A stretch of DNA of 28,659 nt. Source: a virus. Where the stretch lies: positions 1 through 28,659 of IMG/VR virus record IMGVR_UViG_3300027792_000050. One strand, 5' to 3'. Under the pieces are notes generated by a model. The model did no database searches. It had not been told where the DNA came from and saw only the letters and a program-made list of their open reading frames with translations. The translations under genes and the position numbers were made by a program. This document shows, piece by piece, positions 6,038 through 28,659 of this stretch (the stretch's first letter is position 1; each line of letters starts with the position of its first letter).

Positions 6038-8100
6038 TGGCCATCGAGCTGATCAACGGGCGCCCTCGCTCCATTCGTACTGAGGAGGAGCTGATCCGAG
6101 ACATGGTTGACTCGTTGGAGGCGATGAGCCCTGACGAGCAGGCGGCCTTTCTGCACTACCTCGACGAGATGGAGAAGGGCAACGGGGACATCCTGGACCC
6201 CTTCGTCAAGGCCGAGTACGTCGAGGAGCCCGTCGACCCGAGGACGTTCTTGCTGGACGAATACTACCTGGGGCAGGTGGGCACCCATATGTGGCCCAAG
6301 CTCCAGGACGACTTCGTGGAGCTGTTCGAGGGCGACTACTCCGAGGCCATCCTGACCGGCTCCCTGGGCTGGGGGAAGAGCTTCTTCGCGACGTGCGGCC
6401 TGGCCTACGTGCTCTACCAGATGTCGTGCCTCGCCAACCCGCAGGAGGTCTACGGGCTTGCAACGGGCACGGCGCTCGCCATCGCCATCCTGTCGGCCAC
6501 GCGCGAAGCGGCCCGACGTGTTCCCCTTGCCGAGTTGGGCTCCAAGCTCCAGCTCTCGCCCTACTTCAAGGAGAAGTGCCCCTACAAGATCGCGGCGACC
6601 ATGTACGAGATCCGCTTCCCCACCAAGAAGATGATGGTGGTGGCGGGCTCGACGTCAAGTGCGGCCATCGGGACCAACGTCTTCGCTGGGTTCCTGGACG
6701 AGATGGCGTTCATGGGCGGCAAGCGTCAGGTGGACAAGACGGGGCGCCTCGTCGAGGTTGACAAGTCGGAGGTGCTGACGAAGGCCATCGTGCGCCGGAT
6801 GAAGTCCAGGTTCATGCGGGCCGGGAAGCTCCCAGGCATCATGTTCCTGGTCTCGTCGAAGGAGAAGCCTGTCTCCTTCATCGAGGAGAAGATCGCGGAG
6901 GCGCGGCGAGGGCAGAGCCCTGGCGTCTTCCTCCGGGACTACTCGACCTGGGACGTCAAGCCCAGGGAAAACTTCAGCGGCAAGACCTTCCAGATCGCAG
7001 TGGGGAGCGAGACGGTGCGGTCCAAGATCGACCCGACGCCAGAAGACGTCGTGTGGTACAAGGACGCCAGCCTCCGCATCATCGACGTCCCCGAAGAGTA
7101 CAGGCCCGACTTCGAGTCTGACCTGGAGGGAGCGCTCCGCGACATCGCCGGCTTCGCGACCGAGAGCGTCAGCCTCTTCATCCACCGCAGAGAGAAGATC
7201 GTCGAGGCTATCGACGAGAGCTTGGCGAGCCCTCTGGACGTCGAGGAGTGGATGAGCGGCGAGCCACTGGAGTTCTGGTGGGAGAGGGTGGCGGTCCCCT
7301 TCCGGCGTTCCATCCCTGGTGGCTTCTTCGAGGAGGCGTGGAGGCCCATCAGGCACCCGTCCGCTGCGCGCTACGTTCACATCGACCCATCGCTCACCGG
7401 GGACTGCGCCGGGCTCGTCATCGCCCACATCGCTGGCTACACGGAGGTGGTCAGGAGGGACGCCCACGGGGAGTCCTTCACCGAGGTGGCACCCCTCATC
7501 GAGACCGACCTCATGCTCCGCATCATCCCGCCTCCAGGCGATGAAATCTTCCTGGGGGACATCAGGGGCATCATCTACGAGTTCCAGGCCCACGGGTTCT
7601 TGATCAGCTACGCCTCGATGGACAGCTACCAGAGCGCCGACACCAGGCAGCAGTTCCGGCTTCGTGGCATCGAGGCCGAGGTGCTCTCCGTTGACAAGAC
7701 GACCGTCCCCTACGACGCGATGAAGACGGCCCTGTACGAGAACAGGCTGCGGCTCCAGGACAACGTGCTCATCCAGAAGGAGCTTCGAGCGCTTCAGCGG
7801 GTCCAGAGCACGAAGGGAGTCATCCCGAAGTTCATGGTCGACCACCCGCCGAGGGGGACGAAGGACGTCTCTGATGGGCTGGCCGGCGTGGTCCACGGCT
7901 TGATGACCAGGCAGCCAGGGATGCCCATCGCACCGATGGTTTCCGAGCGGCACTCATCGCGCGAGGTCCGCGATGACTCCTGGGTGACCGGGGGCAAGGT
8001 GATGGTCCCACCTTCGGCTGGCGTCAGGGGCACCAAGCAGGGTATGGTGGGGCAGCGAGTGTCGGCCAAGGACATGCCGATGCCGTTCACGAGGGGATAG
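6037..8100 (+). CDS. terL: Terminase large subunit (packaging ATPase and nuclease)
   Basis: A protein of 687 residues (T4 gp17 has 610). It pumps DNA into the prohead and cuts concatemers. The N-terminal ATPase has a Walker A variant GSLGWGKS at 108-115 and a Walker B ending in FLDE with D221-E222, followed by the segment LVSSKEKP, which fits the coupling motif of the family. The C-terminal RNase H-like nuclease starts with HIDPS (D450), continues through a strand with MDSYQSAD, and ends in KDVSDGLAG with D610 and D613. It is translated from an ATG overlapping the upstream stop, so it is probably coupled to the small-subunit candidate. No intein or intron is visible. The extra length is mainly an N-terminal extension and the region between ATPase and nuclease. 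Confidence 0.93.
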   Translation: MAIELINGRPRSIRTEEELIRDMVDSLEAMSPDEQAAFLHYLDEMEKGNGDILDPFVKAEYVEEPVDPRTFLLDEYYLGQVGTHMWPKLQDDFVELFEGDYSEAILTGSLGWGKSFFATCGLAYVLYQMSCLANPQEVYGLATGTALAIAILSATREAARRVPLAELGSKLQLSPYFKEKCPYKIAATMYEIRFPTKKMMVVAGSTSSAAIGTNVFAGFLDEMAFMGGKRQVDKTGRLVEVDKSEVLTKAIVRRMKSRFMRAGKLPGIMFLVSSKEKPVSFIEEKIAEARRGQSPGVFLRDYSTWDVKPRENFSGKTFQIAVGSETVRSKIDPTPEDVVWYKDASLRIIDVPEEYRPDFESDLEGALRDIAGFATESVSLFIHRREKIVEAIDESLASPLDVEEWMSGEPLEFWWERVAVPFRRSIPGGFFEEAWRPIRHPSAARYVHIDPSLTGDCAGLVIAHIAGYTEVVRRDAHGESFTEVAPLIETDLMLRIIPPPGDEIFLGDIRGIIYEFQAHGFLISYASMDSYQSADTRQQFRLRGIEAEVLSVDKTTVPYDAMKTALYENRLRLQDNVLIQKELRALQRVQSTKGVIPKFMVDHPPRGTKDVSDGLAGVVHGLMTRQPGMPIAPMVSERHSSREVRDDSWVTGGKVMVPPSAGVRGTKQGMVGQRVSAKDMPMPFTRG

Positions 8101-22741: not shown

Positions 22742-25480
22742 ATGGCAGAACGCCTTCATCCAGGGGTTTATGTGGAGGAGAAGCGCAGCGGTCTCGCTCC
22801 CATCCAGGGTGTCTCCACCAGCAACATGGGCACCGTCGGCTTCACCGAGCGTGGGCCGTCTGACGTTGCGACGTTGGTGACGAGCTTCCCCAACTTCCAG
22901 GACACGTTCGGCGCCTTCATCGCTGCGAGCCAGATGCCGACCCACGTCTTCGCCTTCTTCGCCAACGGCGGACGGAGGGCCTACGTCGTGCGGGTCACGG
23001 GCTCCGGGTCGGCCAAGGCCATGGGCTACCTGACGAGCGACTGGGCTGAGGAGACCATCGCGACGGGCGACGGCTCCGTGAAGGCCATGAACAGCGCGGC
23101 CCCGACCATCGGCGAGACCGACATCCAGCACATCGACATCGAGCCCGGCTCCGTCACCGTCGCCTTCAAGCAGGTGACGAACGGGGTCTCCGTCCTCGGC
23201 GACGCAATCGGCGGAGCGGCCCCGGCTATGACGCTGAACGTCATCACCGGGACGCCATTCCACGCGGGCATGGTCGGCCAGACCCTCACTCTGGCGGGAT
23301 GCACGACCCCGGCGAACAACGGCACCTTCCCGATCACGGCGGTGAGCGTGGATGGCAAGACGCTCATCTACACGAACGTCGCTGGTGTGGTCGAGGCACT
23401 TGCCGTGGCGGCGACGTGGGCCGTCAGCGTGATCGCTGAGGCGTCGGACCTCTCTCCGGTCCCGGCCGGCGTCGTGACCGAGTTCGCCGGGAAGCTCGGC
23501 ACGACCTCTGCCAACAGGGCCATCGTCCCCGGGAGCGTGACCATCAACGGGATCGCTGCTGGCGAGGCGTACTCGGACACGGGGAGCGATGGGGTCCTGT
23601 ACGAGGCTGGCGCCCCTGCGGTCCCGGCTGGCTACGTGGACTACGAGACCGGCCTCTTCACCATCACCTTCGTCACTGCTCCGCTCAACCCGGCGGACGT
23701 CACCTACGACTACACCCCGCAGCCCCCGGACACGACCGTCACCGACAACGGGGCGGGCGCCTGGAGCGGTGGCTATGCTGGGGCGGTGGCCTACGACACG
23801 GGCGTCTGGTCTCTGACGGCCAACTACGCCCCGGCGAACGGGCTGCCCGTCGAGGTCGCCTACACCCAGCGGGTGTGGCAGTTCCAGCCCATCAGCGAGG
23901 GTGACTGGGGCAACTACGTGCGCCTGGACGTGCGCGGTGACGCCGACTACTACACGCGGGCCACGGCGAGCTTCTCCAGGCACGACGTCCTGGTCTACCT
24001 CTCCGAGGATGGCGGGGTGAGCTACGACCTCCTGGAGACCTTCGAGGATCTCTCCCTCACCAACCCGACCGACGCGAGGTACATCGGGTCCATCCTCAAC
24101 AACGAGGGGGTCGGCAGCTCGCTCATCGGCCTCGTCGAGCCCTCCAACGAGGACGTGGCGCCGCGCAGCCTGTCTGGCTACCAGTGGCAGCGGGCGGTCG
24201 GGGCCGGGAACGGCACCCAGGCGCAGTTCGGAAGCTCCGGTGCGACCCCGACCATCCCGGCTCCCTTCGTCTGTGCCCCGCTGGAGACCCCGGTGCAGCC
24301 CGGCTCCGTGAGCATCGCCTACACGGACCTGAACGGCGTGGCCAGGACCATCACGGACGATGGCAACGGCAACCTCATCGGCGACGTCTTCAGCGGCGCG
24401 GCGGCTGGCTTCAACGAGATCGACTACGACACGGGCGAGTTCGCCTTCGAGACCTCGGCCGACGATGGCGCGACGTCTGGTGCGGTGGGCAACTTTACCC
24501 AGGCTGGCAACGCGGCGGTGCCGATGGTCAGCTACTACCTGGAGCCCACGGACGCCAACACGGCGGACCAGCCCACGGGCGGTCTCGACGGGAGCGCTCC
24601 GACCCGCAGCGAGCTGACGAGCCCGGCTCTCAAGAGCGACCGCAAGGGCATGTACGCCCTGCTTTCGACCGATGAGCTGATCAACCTGACCATCCCCGAT
24701 GCGGCGGGCAACGTCACCATGAGCGTCGACCAGGTGACCGAGGCCGAGACGAACGAGAAGTGGTTCGTCATCCTCGCCACGCCTCCTGGCTACACCCCGA
24801 CCCAGGCGAAGGACTGGCGCATCAACACGCTGGGCATCACGTCCAGCTACGGGGCGCTCTACTACCCCTACATCCAGATCGCCGATCCGGTCACGGACCT
24901 CCCCGTCAACATCCCGCCCGGAGGCCACATCGCGGGCATCTACGCCAGGACCGACTCCGCCAAGAGCGTGGGCAAGGCCCCGGCTGGCACCGTGGACGGC
25001 AAGCTCCTCTTCGCCACAGGGGTCGAGCGGAAGCTGGAGTTCGCCGAGATCGACGTCCTGCACCCCAACCAGGTCAACGCGATCATCAACACCCCGCAGA
25101 CCGGGCTCTGCGTGTGGGGCGCGCGGACCCTGGAGCGACCGCCGAGCGACTTCCGCTACGTCCACGTCAGGAGGCTCTTCAACTTCCTGAAGGCGAGCAT
25201 CTTCAACAGCACGCACGGCTTCGTCTTCGAGAACGTGGGAGCGCCCCTCTGGAGCAAGATCAGGCTCTCCGTCGAGAGCTTCTTGCTCACTCAGTACCAG
25301 CAGGGTCTCTTCAAGGGCGGGACGCCAGCCGAGGCGTTCGCGGTCATCTGCGACGAGACCAACAACCCCCAGAACGTGCAAGACGCGGGCGTGGTGATCT
25401 GCGACATCTACGTCGCGCCCAACACGCCCGGCGAGTTCATCGTGTTCCGCATCCAGCAGAAGGTGGCCCAGGCCGCGTAG
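22742..25480 (+). CDS. Tail sheath protein with large inserted beta domains
   Basis: A protein of 912 residues (T4 gp18 has 659). The start HPGVYVEEK (6-14), TSNMGTVGFTERGP and MPTHVFAFFANGGRRAYVVRV are typical of contractile sheath subunits. So is the end: CVWGARTLERPPSDFRYVHV, RRLFNFLKASIF, FVFENVGAPLWSKIRLSVE, and ICDIYVAPNTPGEFIVFRIQ. The C-terminal part (about 640-912) is the conserved polymerising core. Between lie inserted modules: an NNGTF-type unit around 175-220, and three units with a GSV strand, a DxGxG turn or a YxTG strand at about 264-327, 330-379 and 520-578. These probably decorate the tail outside. Upstream GGGAG serves as ribosome binding site. Codons are strongly C/G-ending as in the capsid gene, fitting high expression. 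Confidence 0.93.
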   Translation: MAERLHPGVYVEEKRSGLAPIQGVSTSNMGTVGFTERGPSDVATLVTSFPNFQDTFGAFIAASQMPTHVFAFFANGGRRAYVVRVTGSGSAKAMGYLTSDWAEETIATGDGSVKAMNSAAPTIGETDIQHIDIEPGSVTVAFKQVTNGVSVLGDAIGGAAPAMTLNVITGTPFHAGMVGQTLTLAGCTTPANNGTFPITAVSVDGKTLIYTNVAGVVEALAVAATWAVSVIAEASDLSPVPAGVVTEFAGKLGTTSANRAIVPGSVTINGIAAGEAYSDTGSDGVLYEAGAPAVPAGYVDYETGLFTITFVTAPLNPADVTYDYTPQPPDTTVTDNGAGAWSGGYAGAVAYDTGVWSLTANYAPANGLPVEVAYTQRVWQFQPISEGDWGNYVRLDVRGDADYYTRATASFSRHDVLVYLSEDGGVSYDLLETFEDLSLTNPTDARYIGSILNNEGVGSSLIGLVEPSNEDVAPRSLSGYQWQRAVGAGNGTQAQFGSSGATPTIPAPFVCAPLETPVQPGSVSIAYTDLNGVARTITDDGNGNLIGDVFSGAAAGFNEIDYDTGEFAFETSADDGATSGAVGNFTQAGNAAVPMVSYYLEPTDANTADQPTGGLDGSAPTRSELTSPALKSDRKGMYALLSTDELINLTIPDAAGNVTMSVDQVTEAETNEKWFVILATPPGYTPTQAKDWRINTLGITSSYGALYYPYIQIADPVTDLPVNIPPGGHIAGIYARTDSAKSVGKAPAGTVDGKLLFATGVERKLEFAEIDVLHPNQVNAIINTPQTGLCVWGARTLERPPSDFRYVHVRRLFNFLKASIFNSTHGFVFENVGAPLWSKIRLSVESFLLTQYQQGLFKGGTPAEAFAVICDETNNPQNVQDAGVVICDIYVAPNTPGEFIVFRIQQKVAQAA

Positions 25481-26969: not shown

Positions 26970-27587
26970 ATGGGACGATCAGCGGCAACCGATCCGCTTC
27001 ATGCTTTCAGGTTCCACGCCCGCATGGTTCCGGGCGACGCCTCTCCGGTCAACGGCATCCCCGGAGCTTCTCCAGGTGACGCGCTCCAGCCCTTCGAGAG
27101 CGGCCCGGGGTACATCGCCGGGCAGGGAGCCGAGGCCGGCTTCCAGAGCATCACGGCGCCCGAGCTGACCCAGGAGATGGCCGAGTACCGCGAGGGCATT
27201 CGGACCTACACGCAGAAGTTCCCTGGCGTCCCGAGCGTCAACGACATCACCCTCATCAGGGGGTGCGCTCGGTTTGACACGGCCTTCTTCGCATGGATTC
27301 TCGCCGCCGCCGAGGGCGACGAGTATCGCGGGGACCTCACCCTCTACCACATCCAGCGTCCCAAGCGCAGCGTGGCCATCACGACGGGGGCCAGCGGGAG
27401 CGCTCAGATGGCGGCGACCGAGATCGAGCTGACGGACGCCAACACGAAGCGGTACATCCTGCGGGACGCCTTCCCGATCAGGGTCAAGATCGCGGGCGAC
27501 CTCGACGCTTCGACATCCGACGTCTCGCTCTCGGAGATGGACGTCGCCTACGAGCGGTTCGACGTCGAGCTGCCCTCCGCTGCGTAG
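26970..27587 (+). CDS. Tail tube protein, T4 gp19-like
   Basis: A protein of 205 residues (gp19 has 163) with GGAGAAGGAGAAG before the ATG. It forms the inner tube of the contractile tail. Family signatures are HAFRFHARM at about 11-19, GAEAGFQSITAPELTQEMAEY and REGIRTYTQKFPGVP, then ITLIRGCARFDTAFFAWI. The C-terminal half consists of strands (LTLYHIQRPKRSVAIT, YILRDAFPIRVKIAGDL, VSLSEMDVAYERFDVEL) that form the tube barrel. The extra length over gp19 comes from a loop at about 20-50 (VPGDASPVNGIPGASPGDA). The gene order sheath - small genes - tube agrees. Confidence 0.87.
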   Translation: MGRSAATDPLHAFRFHARMVPGDASPVNGIPGASPGDALQPFESGPGYIAGQGAEAGFQSITAPELTQEMAEYREGIRTYTQKFPGVPSVNDITLIRGCARFDTAFFAWILAAAEGDEYRGDLTLYHIQRPKRSVAITTGASGSAQMAATEIELTDANTKRYILRDAFPIRVKIAGDLDASTSDVSLSEMDVAYERFDVELPSAA

Positions 27588-27663
27588 CCTGAAGGAGCGG
27601 CCCAGAGCCAACTAGGCTGGTCTTCGGGTCTGCCGTGCGGCATCATGGGCCAGAGAGGTCCCG
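27588..27663 (+). other. Gap between tube gene and homing endonuclease
   Basis: 76 bases. AGCC-AACTA-GGCT and TGCCG-TG-CGGCA are two weak dyads. A purine-rich stretch, GAGAGG, 6 bases before the ATG at 27664 can serve as ribosome binding site. No promoter or terminator can be supported. Confidence 0.4.
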
Positions 27664-28533
27664 ATGGCGCAGCGGCGATTCTTGGACATTGCTCATCCTC
27701 GCTTCCTTGACTACCATTGTGGCATGGTTTTCAAGCGCGGCGACAAGCCATGGAACATCAAGACCGTCGATAGTGACACACGGGGCAGGCTCGTCGACCT
27801 TTACCTTTCTGGGATGCCTGGCGAGGCGGCGGGCCGGGAGCTTGGCCTGACGAAGCACTCTGCGATGAAGGTGCTCCGAGAGGAGGGCGTCGTTCGTGGG
27901 GCTCCTGTGGTGAACAGGACGAACGCCAGGGGCGCGAGGACCGTTGGGTTCATCGAGAGCTTCTGGACGCGCTGGAGCCCGGAGAGCGCCTGGGTGTGGG
28001 GTTTGGTCTTCGGTGACGGCTGGGTCACAGAGAGAGATGTTCACCTGTCCGGGAGCCAAGAGGTCATCGACCTCGTCAAGGCTGCGAGCGGGTGCAAGGC
28101 CAAGGTGTATCAGCGAGAGGGGTGCGTGTCCTTGTACCTGGGTGGCCTGGATATGGTGGAGGCGGCTGGTCGTGTCGGGCTCACCCCAGGCCCCAAGTCG
28201 AGCACCATCGAGTGGCCTGAGATGCCGGTCGAGTTCGACTGGCACTTCATTCGTGGGCTCTGGGATAGTGACGGGTGCTGGAGCACATGGAGGAGGGAGA
28301 CGCATCCCCTTCTAACGGCTACGCTCGCGTCTAACAGCCGTGGTATGTTGGAGGCCGTCATCGAGAGAGCCAGGGTCGCGGGTGTGGAAGGGAGCCTGAA
28401 TCAGCCACGGGAGAAGCACTGGCACGCGAGATTCTTCGGAAGCAACGCGGAAGCCCTTGGTCGGCTCATGTACTCTGGGTCGTCGGAGGCCATGAGATGC
28501 CCTCGCAAGTGGGCGGACTTCAGGGGGTGCTGA
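27664..28533 (+). CDS. LAGLIDADG homing endonuclease
   Basis: A reading frame of 289 residues. Residues about 35-75 (TRGRLVDLYLSGMPGEAAGRELGLTKHSAMKVLREEG) are a helix-turn-helix. Two LAGLIDADG helices follow, WVWGLVFGDG (110-119, catalytic D118) and FIRGLWDSDG (195-204, D203), so one chain has both active-site halves. Such enzymes cut a long target site and spread their own gene. The first eight residues, MAQRRFLD, equal the start of the tail gene directly downstream, and 9-20 resemble it weakly. The endonuclease itself may therefore begin at M21 (ATG 27724), with the first 20 codons derived from the invaded or a related tail gene. Codon use is less biased than in the virion genes. The enzyme type is confident, the start is not. 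Confidence 0.87.
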   Translation: MAQRRFLDIAHPRFLDYHCGMVFKRGDKPWNIKTVDSDTRGRLVDLYLSGMPGEAAGRELGLTKHSAMKVLREEGVVRGAPVVNRTNARGARTVGFIESFWTRWSPESAWVWGLVFGDGWVTERDVHLSGSQEVIDLVKAASGCKAKVYQREGCVSLYLGGLDMVEAAGRVGLTPGPKSSTIEWPEMPVEFDWHFIRGLWDSDGCWSTWRRETHPLLTATLASNSRGMLEAVIERARVAGVEGSLNQPREKHWHARFFGSNAEALGRLMYSGSSEAMRCPRKWADFRGC

Positions 28534-28534
28534 A

Positions 28535-28659
28535 GTGGCGCAAAGAAGATTTCTGGACATGATGCAGCAGTACCCGTTCTGGGTGCTGGATGCTTCTGGT
28601 TTCGCAGGGAATCCGCTCTTCAGCGTCTTCGATCCGGTGCTGGGCTTCTCTGGCTGTTC
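28535..28659 (+). CDS. Start of a tail protein, possibly tube-related (3' end outside window)
   Basis: 41 codons from a GTG one base after the endonuclease stop; a GGGGG-type ribosome binding site lies 6 bases upstream. The product starts MAQRRFLDMMQQYPFWVLDA and continues with NPLFSVFDPVLGFSGC. The 'hPFWl.D....P.l.P..GFSs.TAPE' start is one I know from phage tail proteins encoded next to the tube gene and thought to be tube-like. Only the N-terminal part is present, so this remains tentative. It is probably the target gene, or a neighbour of the target site, of the homing endonuclease. Confidence 0.5.
   Translation, partial: MAQRRFLDMMQQYPFWVLDASGFAGNPLFSVFDPVLGFSGC

Follow-up and report, generated by a model that had tools for sequence, protein, structure and literature searches.

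We describe here a mobile LAGLIDADG homing endonuclease gene that has most probably inserted itself into the start of a phage tail gene, capturing the native start of that gene and carrying a recoded start that restores it, in what would be a natural equivalent of a home-and-rescue element. The window, by which we mean the whole stretch of DNA analyzed, is a virus contig of 28,659 bases (IMG/VR record IMGVR_UViG_3300027792_000050). Its gene order is of the contractile-tail type, with the sheath gene followed by several small genes, the tail tube gene, the endonuclease ORF and, at the contig end, a further tail gene. The features relevant to this work are the following (positions in the window; L002, L003, L004 and L017 are related sequences described below):

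22742-25480: sheath gene.
26970..27587, + strand: tail tube gene (gp19-like), 5' of the insert (Pfam PF06841, E=1.8e-13; PHROG tail tube).
27588..27663, + strand: leader of the tail gene, left 5' of the endonuclease and parted from the tail gene by the insert; 27609-27651 is nearly invariant in L002, L003 and L004.
27653..27658, + strand: GAGAGG, the native Shine-Dalgarno-like sequence of the tail-gene start, now putatively serving the endonuclease.
27664..27689, + strand: native 5' end of the tail gene, ATGGCGCAGCGGCGATTCTTGGACAT, encoding MAQRRFLD plus AT, in frame with the endonuclease and identical to the empty allele of L002.
27664..28533, + strand: endonuclease ORF, 289 aa (PF14528, E=3.5e-6; PHROG endonuclease, 9.1e-11; AlphaFold model; best PDB match 2dch).
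27688..27711, + strand: IAHPRFLD, a third and degenerate version of the start, situated at the left insert end (BLOSUM62 score of 24 against MAQRRFLD); its first two bases (AT) are native.
27690..28560, + strand: insert of exactly 871 bp, defined by comparison with L002.
27724..27726, + strand: Met21, the probable ancestral start of the endonuclease, aligned with the initiator Met of L017.
27994..28020, + strand: first LAGLIDADG motif, VWGLVFGDG, with D118 and G119 invariant in alignments of 38 and 33 rows.
28249..28275, + strand: second LAGLIDADG motif, IRGLWDSDG, with D203 and G204 invariant in the same alignments.
28522..28529, + strand: AGGGGGTG, a putative Shine-Dalgarno-like sequence for the rescued tail gene, within the end of the endonuclease ORF.
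28535..28560, + strand: recoded tail-gene start carried in the insert, GTGGCGCAAAGAAGATTTCTGGACAT, encoding V/MAQRRFLD plus AT, defined by comparison with L002 and between the copies.
28561..28659, + strand: native tail gene, from codon 9 to the contig end; 99/99 bases as in L002, where the empty allele encodes 222 aa.

The endonuclease ORF opens with ATG at 27664 (MAQRRFLDIAHPRFLDYHCG...), and the tail gene, truncated by the contig end at 28659, opens with GTG at 28535 (VAQRRFLDMMQQYPFWVLDASG...); both read MAQRRFLD. Over codons 1-8 the two starts differ at 7/24 bases, with all differences in codons 2-8 being synonymous, and at 8/27 when codon 9 (ATT vs ATG) is included. This recount agrees with a preliminary description of the region, according to which both frames open with MAQRRFLD and differ at 8 of 27 positions, nearly all of them synonymous. 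When the first eight residues of the endonuclease ORF were scored against those of the next ORF (BLOSUM62), the window gave a value of 40, while the maximum in a chance control of 5,000 mismatched pairings of 64 endonuclease loci was 27, and the own-pair score was 17 or lower at every other locus. The match is not exceptional if it is not tied to the start codons; it is the start-to-start position, together with the empty site in L002, that settles the duplication. The same start duplication was found in none of the 63 related endonuclease loci (0/63), and with looser criteria their flanks yielded only one longer repeat and probable chance matches. The repeat in question is a 197-bp direct repeat (L034:2559-2754 and L034:3829-4025, 79% identity) that flanks a related endonuclease gene and looks noncoding; it may represent a further duplication tied to endonuclease insertion.

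A search with the tube protein led to three related phage contigs (L002, L003 and L004). The first of them is almost the same virus without the endonuclease: there is one mismatch in the 6,720 bp left of the insert (99.985% identity), none in the 99 bases to its right, and 100% identity across a further 7,036 bp. The tail-gene start of L002 is single and uninterrupted; the gene (6695-7363, 222 aa) opens with ATGGCGCAGCGGCGATTCTTGGACATGATGCAGCAG, and the native ATG is the start in L003 and L004 as well. With respect to this allele, the window has an exact 871-bp insert after GGACAT, inside codon 9, the boundary being ambiguous by the 7-bp TGGACAT common to both ends. Two near-identical genomes, the window (HEG+) and L002 (HEG-), thus differ in the presence or absence of the endonuclease at a single site, and on grounds of parsimony a gain in the window lineage rather than a loss in L002 is the simplest reading. 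Since the upstream copy equals the empty allele of L002, the native start is the upstream MAQRRFLD, and it is the downstream copy that was imported with the insert. L003 and L004, with 74-80% DNA identity, likewise have an empty site and one start copy directly after the tube gene, and the same arrangement was observed in L010, a remote relative located on a contig of a Phycisphaerae MAG. Nor was the endonuclease found at any other position in the L002, L003, L004 and L010 genomes. The contig that holds L010 (JAJDDX010000500.1, 183 kb) is binned with a Phycisphaerae genome and has a relative of the tail gene (59%) in the same gene order; the binning is possibly a hint at the host group, or else the contig could be a misbinned phage. 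No match in phages was obtained when the 222-aa product of L002 was used as query, and its family and position make it presumable that the tail gene is essential.

These relatives bear on the proposal, made in the preliminary description, that the insertion took place in one of two tail paralogues arranged in tandem, whose start signals the enzyme uses. The use of the tail start signals holds, with the ORF beginning at the native ATG, preceded by its own AGAGAGG. As for the tandem genes, the tail gene (L002:6695-7363) and the preceding tube gene (26970-27587) are indeed distant paralogues, with 34% identity in the alignment. However, the comparison with relatives lacking the endonuclease, which that description had itself recommended, revealed the tube gene followed directly by one MAQRRFLD gene in L002, L003, L004 and L010, and the right flank of the insert corresponds to a single L002 gene from codon 9 on; L002 refutes this explanation, to which we attach next to no probability.

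On the left side of the insertion everything up to the eighth codon of the tail gene is native (leader, ribosome site and ATG included) and runs in frame into the endonuclease, while at the right end a ribosome-binding-like sequence, a GTG and seven synonymous codons are joined exactly to native codon 9. As far as the contig reads, the tail protein sequence is unchanged. The GTG at 28535 is located one base after the endonuclease stop codon, a spacing suggestive of translational coupling for the tail gene. All the evidence for the occupied allele comes from one sequence, an assembled contig that ends 99 bp past the right junction, and these two facts could speak for a chimeric metagenome assembly in which an endonuclease fragment was joined to a tail gene. 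Such an artifact would not, however, yield an in-frame fusion, a ribosome-binding-like sequence and the first eight residues of the host protein written in other codons, and we consider it very improbable. The position of the contig end also fits an assembler that stopped at a branch, if HEG+ and HEG- alleles co-occurred in the sample.

The leader left upstream of the endonuclease includes a stretch of about 43 bases, CAACTAGGCTGGTCTTCGGGTCTGCCGTnnGGCATCATGGGCC, present at 27609-27651 in the window, 6640-6682 in L002, 6640-6682 in L003 and about 6625-6667 in L004. Hardly any of its bases vary among phages with otherwise 74-80% identity, and the ribosome site falls inside a short hairpin in all three predicted folds. 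This leader was not found at other loci in the sequences searched and is absent from L010; it is possibly a conserved regulatory element.

Motifs, fold and the presence/absence polymorphism identify the inserted ORF as a LAGLIDADG homing endonuclease. It consists of an N-terminal extension of about 20 aa, a helix-turn-helix-like domain and the LAGLIDADG nuclease, for which the match to Pfam LAGLIDADG_3 was above the cut-off; the four motif residues mentioned above (D118, G119, D203, G204) are invariant in the 33-38 aligned sequences. The AlphaFold model has a mean pLDDT of 83.7, with residues 1-31 below 50. When it was used in Foldseek, the best match was 2dch (archaeal I-Tsp061I, E=4.8e-9), followed by inteins, I-AniI and I-DmoI, and a profile search of PDB sequences also placed I-Tsp061I first. 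Met21 aligns with the initiator Met of a related endonuclease (L017, MVIKQNKG...), and the extension before it lies outside the homologous part. Judging from this alignment and the model, Met21 is the probable ancestral start, and the added N-terminus of some 20 residues, 8 of them native and 12 from the insert, is probably unstructured. A single-sequence search of viral contigs gave no relatives of the endonuclease; tblastn in phages returned 7 records with 22-26% identity, and a profile search gave 79 related loci. In composition the gene differs from those of the phage, with a GC3 of 0.78 vs 0.88, and with AGA making up 16% vs 3% of Arg codons. In five of the related loci (L035, L061, L066, L068 and L088) the endonuclease domain is found near the N-terminus of long ORFs (~500-700 aa) with no intervening stop, and these are possibly fusions to host genes or inteins.

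Removal of exactly 871 bp gives the empty allele, as expected of an intein or a self-splicing intron, in which case the downstream copy would be incidental; in addition, the ORFs of introns are commonly fused to the upstream exon. The details of the insert argue against both. For an intron, there is no Rfam group I or II match in the region, about 60 of the 871 bases lie outside the stretch from Met21 to the endonuclease stop, with little room for a ribozyme, and in any placement the junction fails the ends of group I (exon end U, intron end G) and group II introns. For an intein, the in-frame TGA at 28531-28533 means that the insert is not open through both flanks. The start codon and the seven matching codons would in either case be left unexplained, and a splicing element seems to us barely credible.

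The preliminary description had also suggested that the relation between the two frames extends beyond the start, with residues 9-20 of the endonuclease aligned to YPFWVLDASG in the tail protein. A better alignment is that of residues 9-16, IAHPRFLD, with MAQRRFLD itself. This third copy of the start is encoded by ATTGCTCATCCTCGCTTCCTTGAC, directly after the eight native codons, and its score of 24 was reached by none of the 6,746 in-frame and none of the 47,992 six-frame 8-mers of the window. Three residues are changed and the start codon is lost in this left-end copy, while the right-end copy has kept the protein, which fits a left copy that does no more than extend the enzyme, and a right copy on which the tail gene depends. 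The presence of the third copy suggests that the unit was probably already fused to a related tail-gene start before entering the present phage, the junction with its left end being located at or close to that start codon.

The presumed native site, GGCGATTCTTGGACAT/GATGCAGCAG, is rebuilt at neither junction. At the right junction there are 6 mismatches, located in the left half (-8, -9, -14, -15, -17 and -18), and at the left junction 19/24 positions of the right half are mismatched. When the leader and native start are compared with the insert end, the longest identical stretch is 7 bp. Had the codons been identical, the right junction would contain the complete native site and the two starts would form a 26-bp near-perfect repeat. 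From these mismatches we infer that the empty site would be cut and the occupied site spared. An earlier suggestion that the downstream copy was recoded, and thereby made resistant to the enzyme, is borne out as to which copy changed, the upstream one being identical to the empty allele; the resistance would follow from the six right-junction mismatches. Over 48 bp, L003 departs from the native site at 5 positions and L004 at 7, some of them (-8, -9) shared with the right junction, and the recoded block is therefore no more divergent than ordinary alleles.

With respect to the origin of the recoded block, we favor a donor allele from a diverged phage, with selection possibly keeping the block in its present form. 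This is close to another option of the preliminary description, arrival of the enzyme with flanking DNA from a related phage, which is plausible and preferred for the recoded block, although the donor was not found. The block shares 18/24 bases with L003, 17/24 with the native start and 15/24 with L004, and its distance to the native start (7/24) can be set beside those of L003 (5/24) and L004 (6/24). The 33 bases past the junction are identical in L003, so that a crossover there would leave no mark. The lower GC3 and higher AGA share of the enzyme gene are further points in favor of a donor. A donor with the recoded start (GTGGCGCAAAGAAGATTTCTGGAC; GTGGCGCAAAGAAGATTTCTGGACATG) was not found by a pattern search of viral sequences, by profile in viral and genome contigs, or in 397 genomes of the class to which the L010 genome belongs. 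The predicted folding of the start regions, -19.8 kcal/mol for the recoded one vs -22.4 with native codons, does not discriminate.

The block could instead have been made in place, by a duplication of the 5' end at the time of insertion, after which selection for escape from cutting and recombination would have driven the downstream copy apart. In line with this, every one of codons 3-7 is changed without effect on the protein, the codons CAA AGA AGA TTT are rare in the phage (0.063, 0.03, 0.03 and 0.043), and CGG to AGA is the largest possible synonymous change. However, the flanks are one base from L002 in ~6.8 kb, which places the changes before the split unless the insertion is older and was lost in L002. 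Any synonymous change forces two-codon amino acids to the rare codon, and L003 likewise has CAA and TTT there. The first codons of genes tend to be AT-richer, and the distance of 7/24 is like that of natural alleles. Recoding in place thus appears rather unlikely to us. We are similarly doubtful, if slightly less so, about a broader version in which selection on the element fixed the synonymous recoding, restoring the gene and abolishing both self-cutting and recombination between the starts, while the element moved between the tail genes of related phages and left worn copies behind (MAQRRFLD, IAHPRFLD).

In the overall explanation that we consider probable, a mobile endonuclease gene has landed in a conserved, tube-like tail gene, within its 5' end and at the site which the enzyme presumably cuts. 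The enzyme would now be expressed from the start signals of the tail gene (native leader, AGAGAGG and ATG) and would cut empty alleles near GGACAT/GATG, and repair from the HEG+ allele would copy the enzyme and the rescue start into the cut allele. The tail protein would be started by AGGGGGTG and the GTG at 28535. Recoding would block self-cutting at the right junction, and would also do away with a direct repeat through which the insert might otherwise be deleted or left out during repair. The rescue block most likely derives from a diverged phage, in which it opened the same gene. The sequence permits both cutting of the unoccupied allele and restoration of the host gene through the carried block.

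Several known systems share part of this arrangement. The seg and mob genes of T4 are usually located between genes, and their products cut at distances of hundreds of bases or more from the genes themselves, while Aeh1 mobE (in nrdA) and T4 mobA are associated with host genes split into two proteins (PMC2988022). As in those cases, the window has an endonuclease gene without a splicing element that is polymorphic among close phages. Unlike seg and mob genes, it is fused to the first eight native codons of the tail gene instead of lying between intact genes, and unlike Aeh1 mobE and T4 mobA the host gene is restored here, not split. This would be a third way to persist in conserved coding sequence without splicing: to take the start and supply a new one.

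A closer likeness is found in the mitochondrial mobile ORFs (mORFs) of Glomus atp6, atp9, cox2 and nad3 and of Allomyces atp6, which have duplicated host-gene ends; in three of the four Glomus cases a LAGLIDADG endonuclease is involved, and the C-terminal copies of Glomus atp6 have 63.5% of bases and 91% of residues in common, the foreign copy making a hybrid gene (PMC3630166). These mORFs and the window have in common an endonuclease within a host gene and a diverged, protein-conserving copy of the displaced part. In the mitochondrial cases considered, however, it is the 3' part that is carried, in front of the endonuclease or together with it, and the gene's own 3' end stays behind, whereas here it is the 5' part, placed after the endonuclease, the native 5' end drives the endonuclease, and the genome is that of a phage. 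The window would thus be a mirror image of the fungal mORFs, and the strategy seems to have arisen at both gene ends, in unrelated genomes. In the literature searched, with most subscription papers outside its coverage, no phage case of a duplicated host-gene end was found, and as far as that literature goes the replacement of a 5' end from a position after the enzyme, in a phage, appears to be new.

Cases reported in Tremella also combine intraspecific presence/absence with a foreign host-gene part that replaces the native one (PMC7315562). The window resembles them in both the polymorphism and the carried foreign copy; they differ in that their duplicated piece is at the 5' end of the insert, is exon-sized rather than eight codons long, and resembles the following exon though it is called N-terminal. 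The window shows how elements of this type can swap short host-gene pieces for foreign codons. Home-and-rescue (HomeR) drives, whose design is reportedly Cas9-based and directed at insects, are engineered and unrelated to the present element, but work alike. These synthetic drives are described as a cutting element in a needed gene with a rescue that its own nuclease does not cut (PMC7968924). The window would offer a compact natural system for analyzing how much recoding protects such an element from its own enzyme and from recombination.
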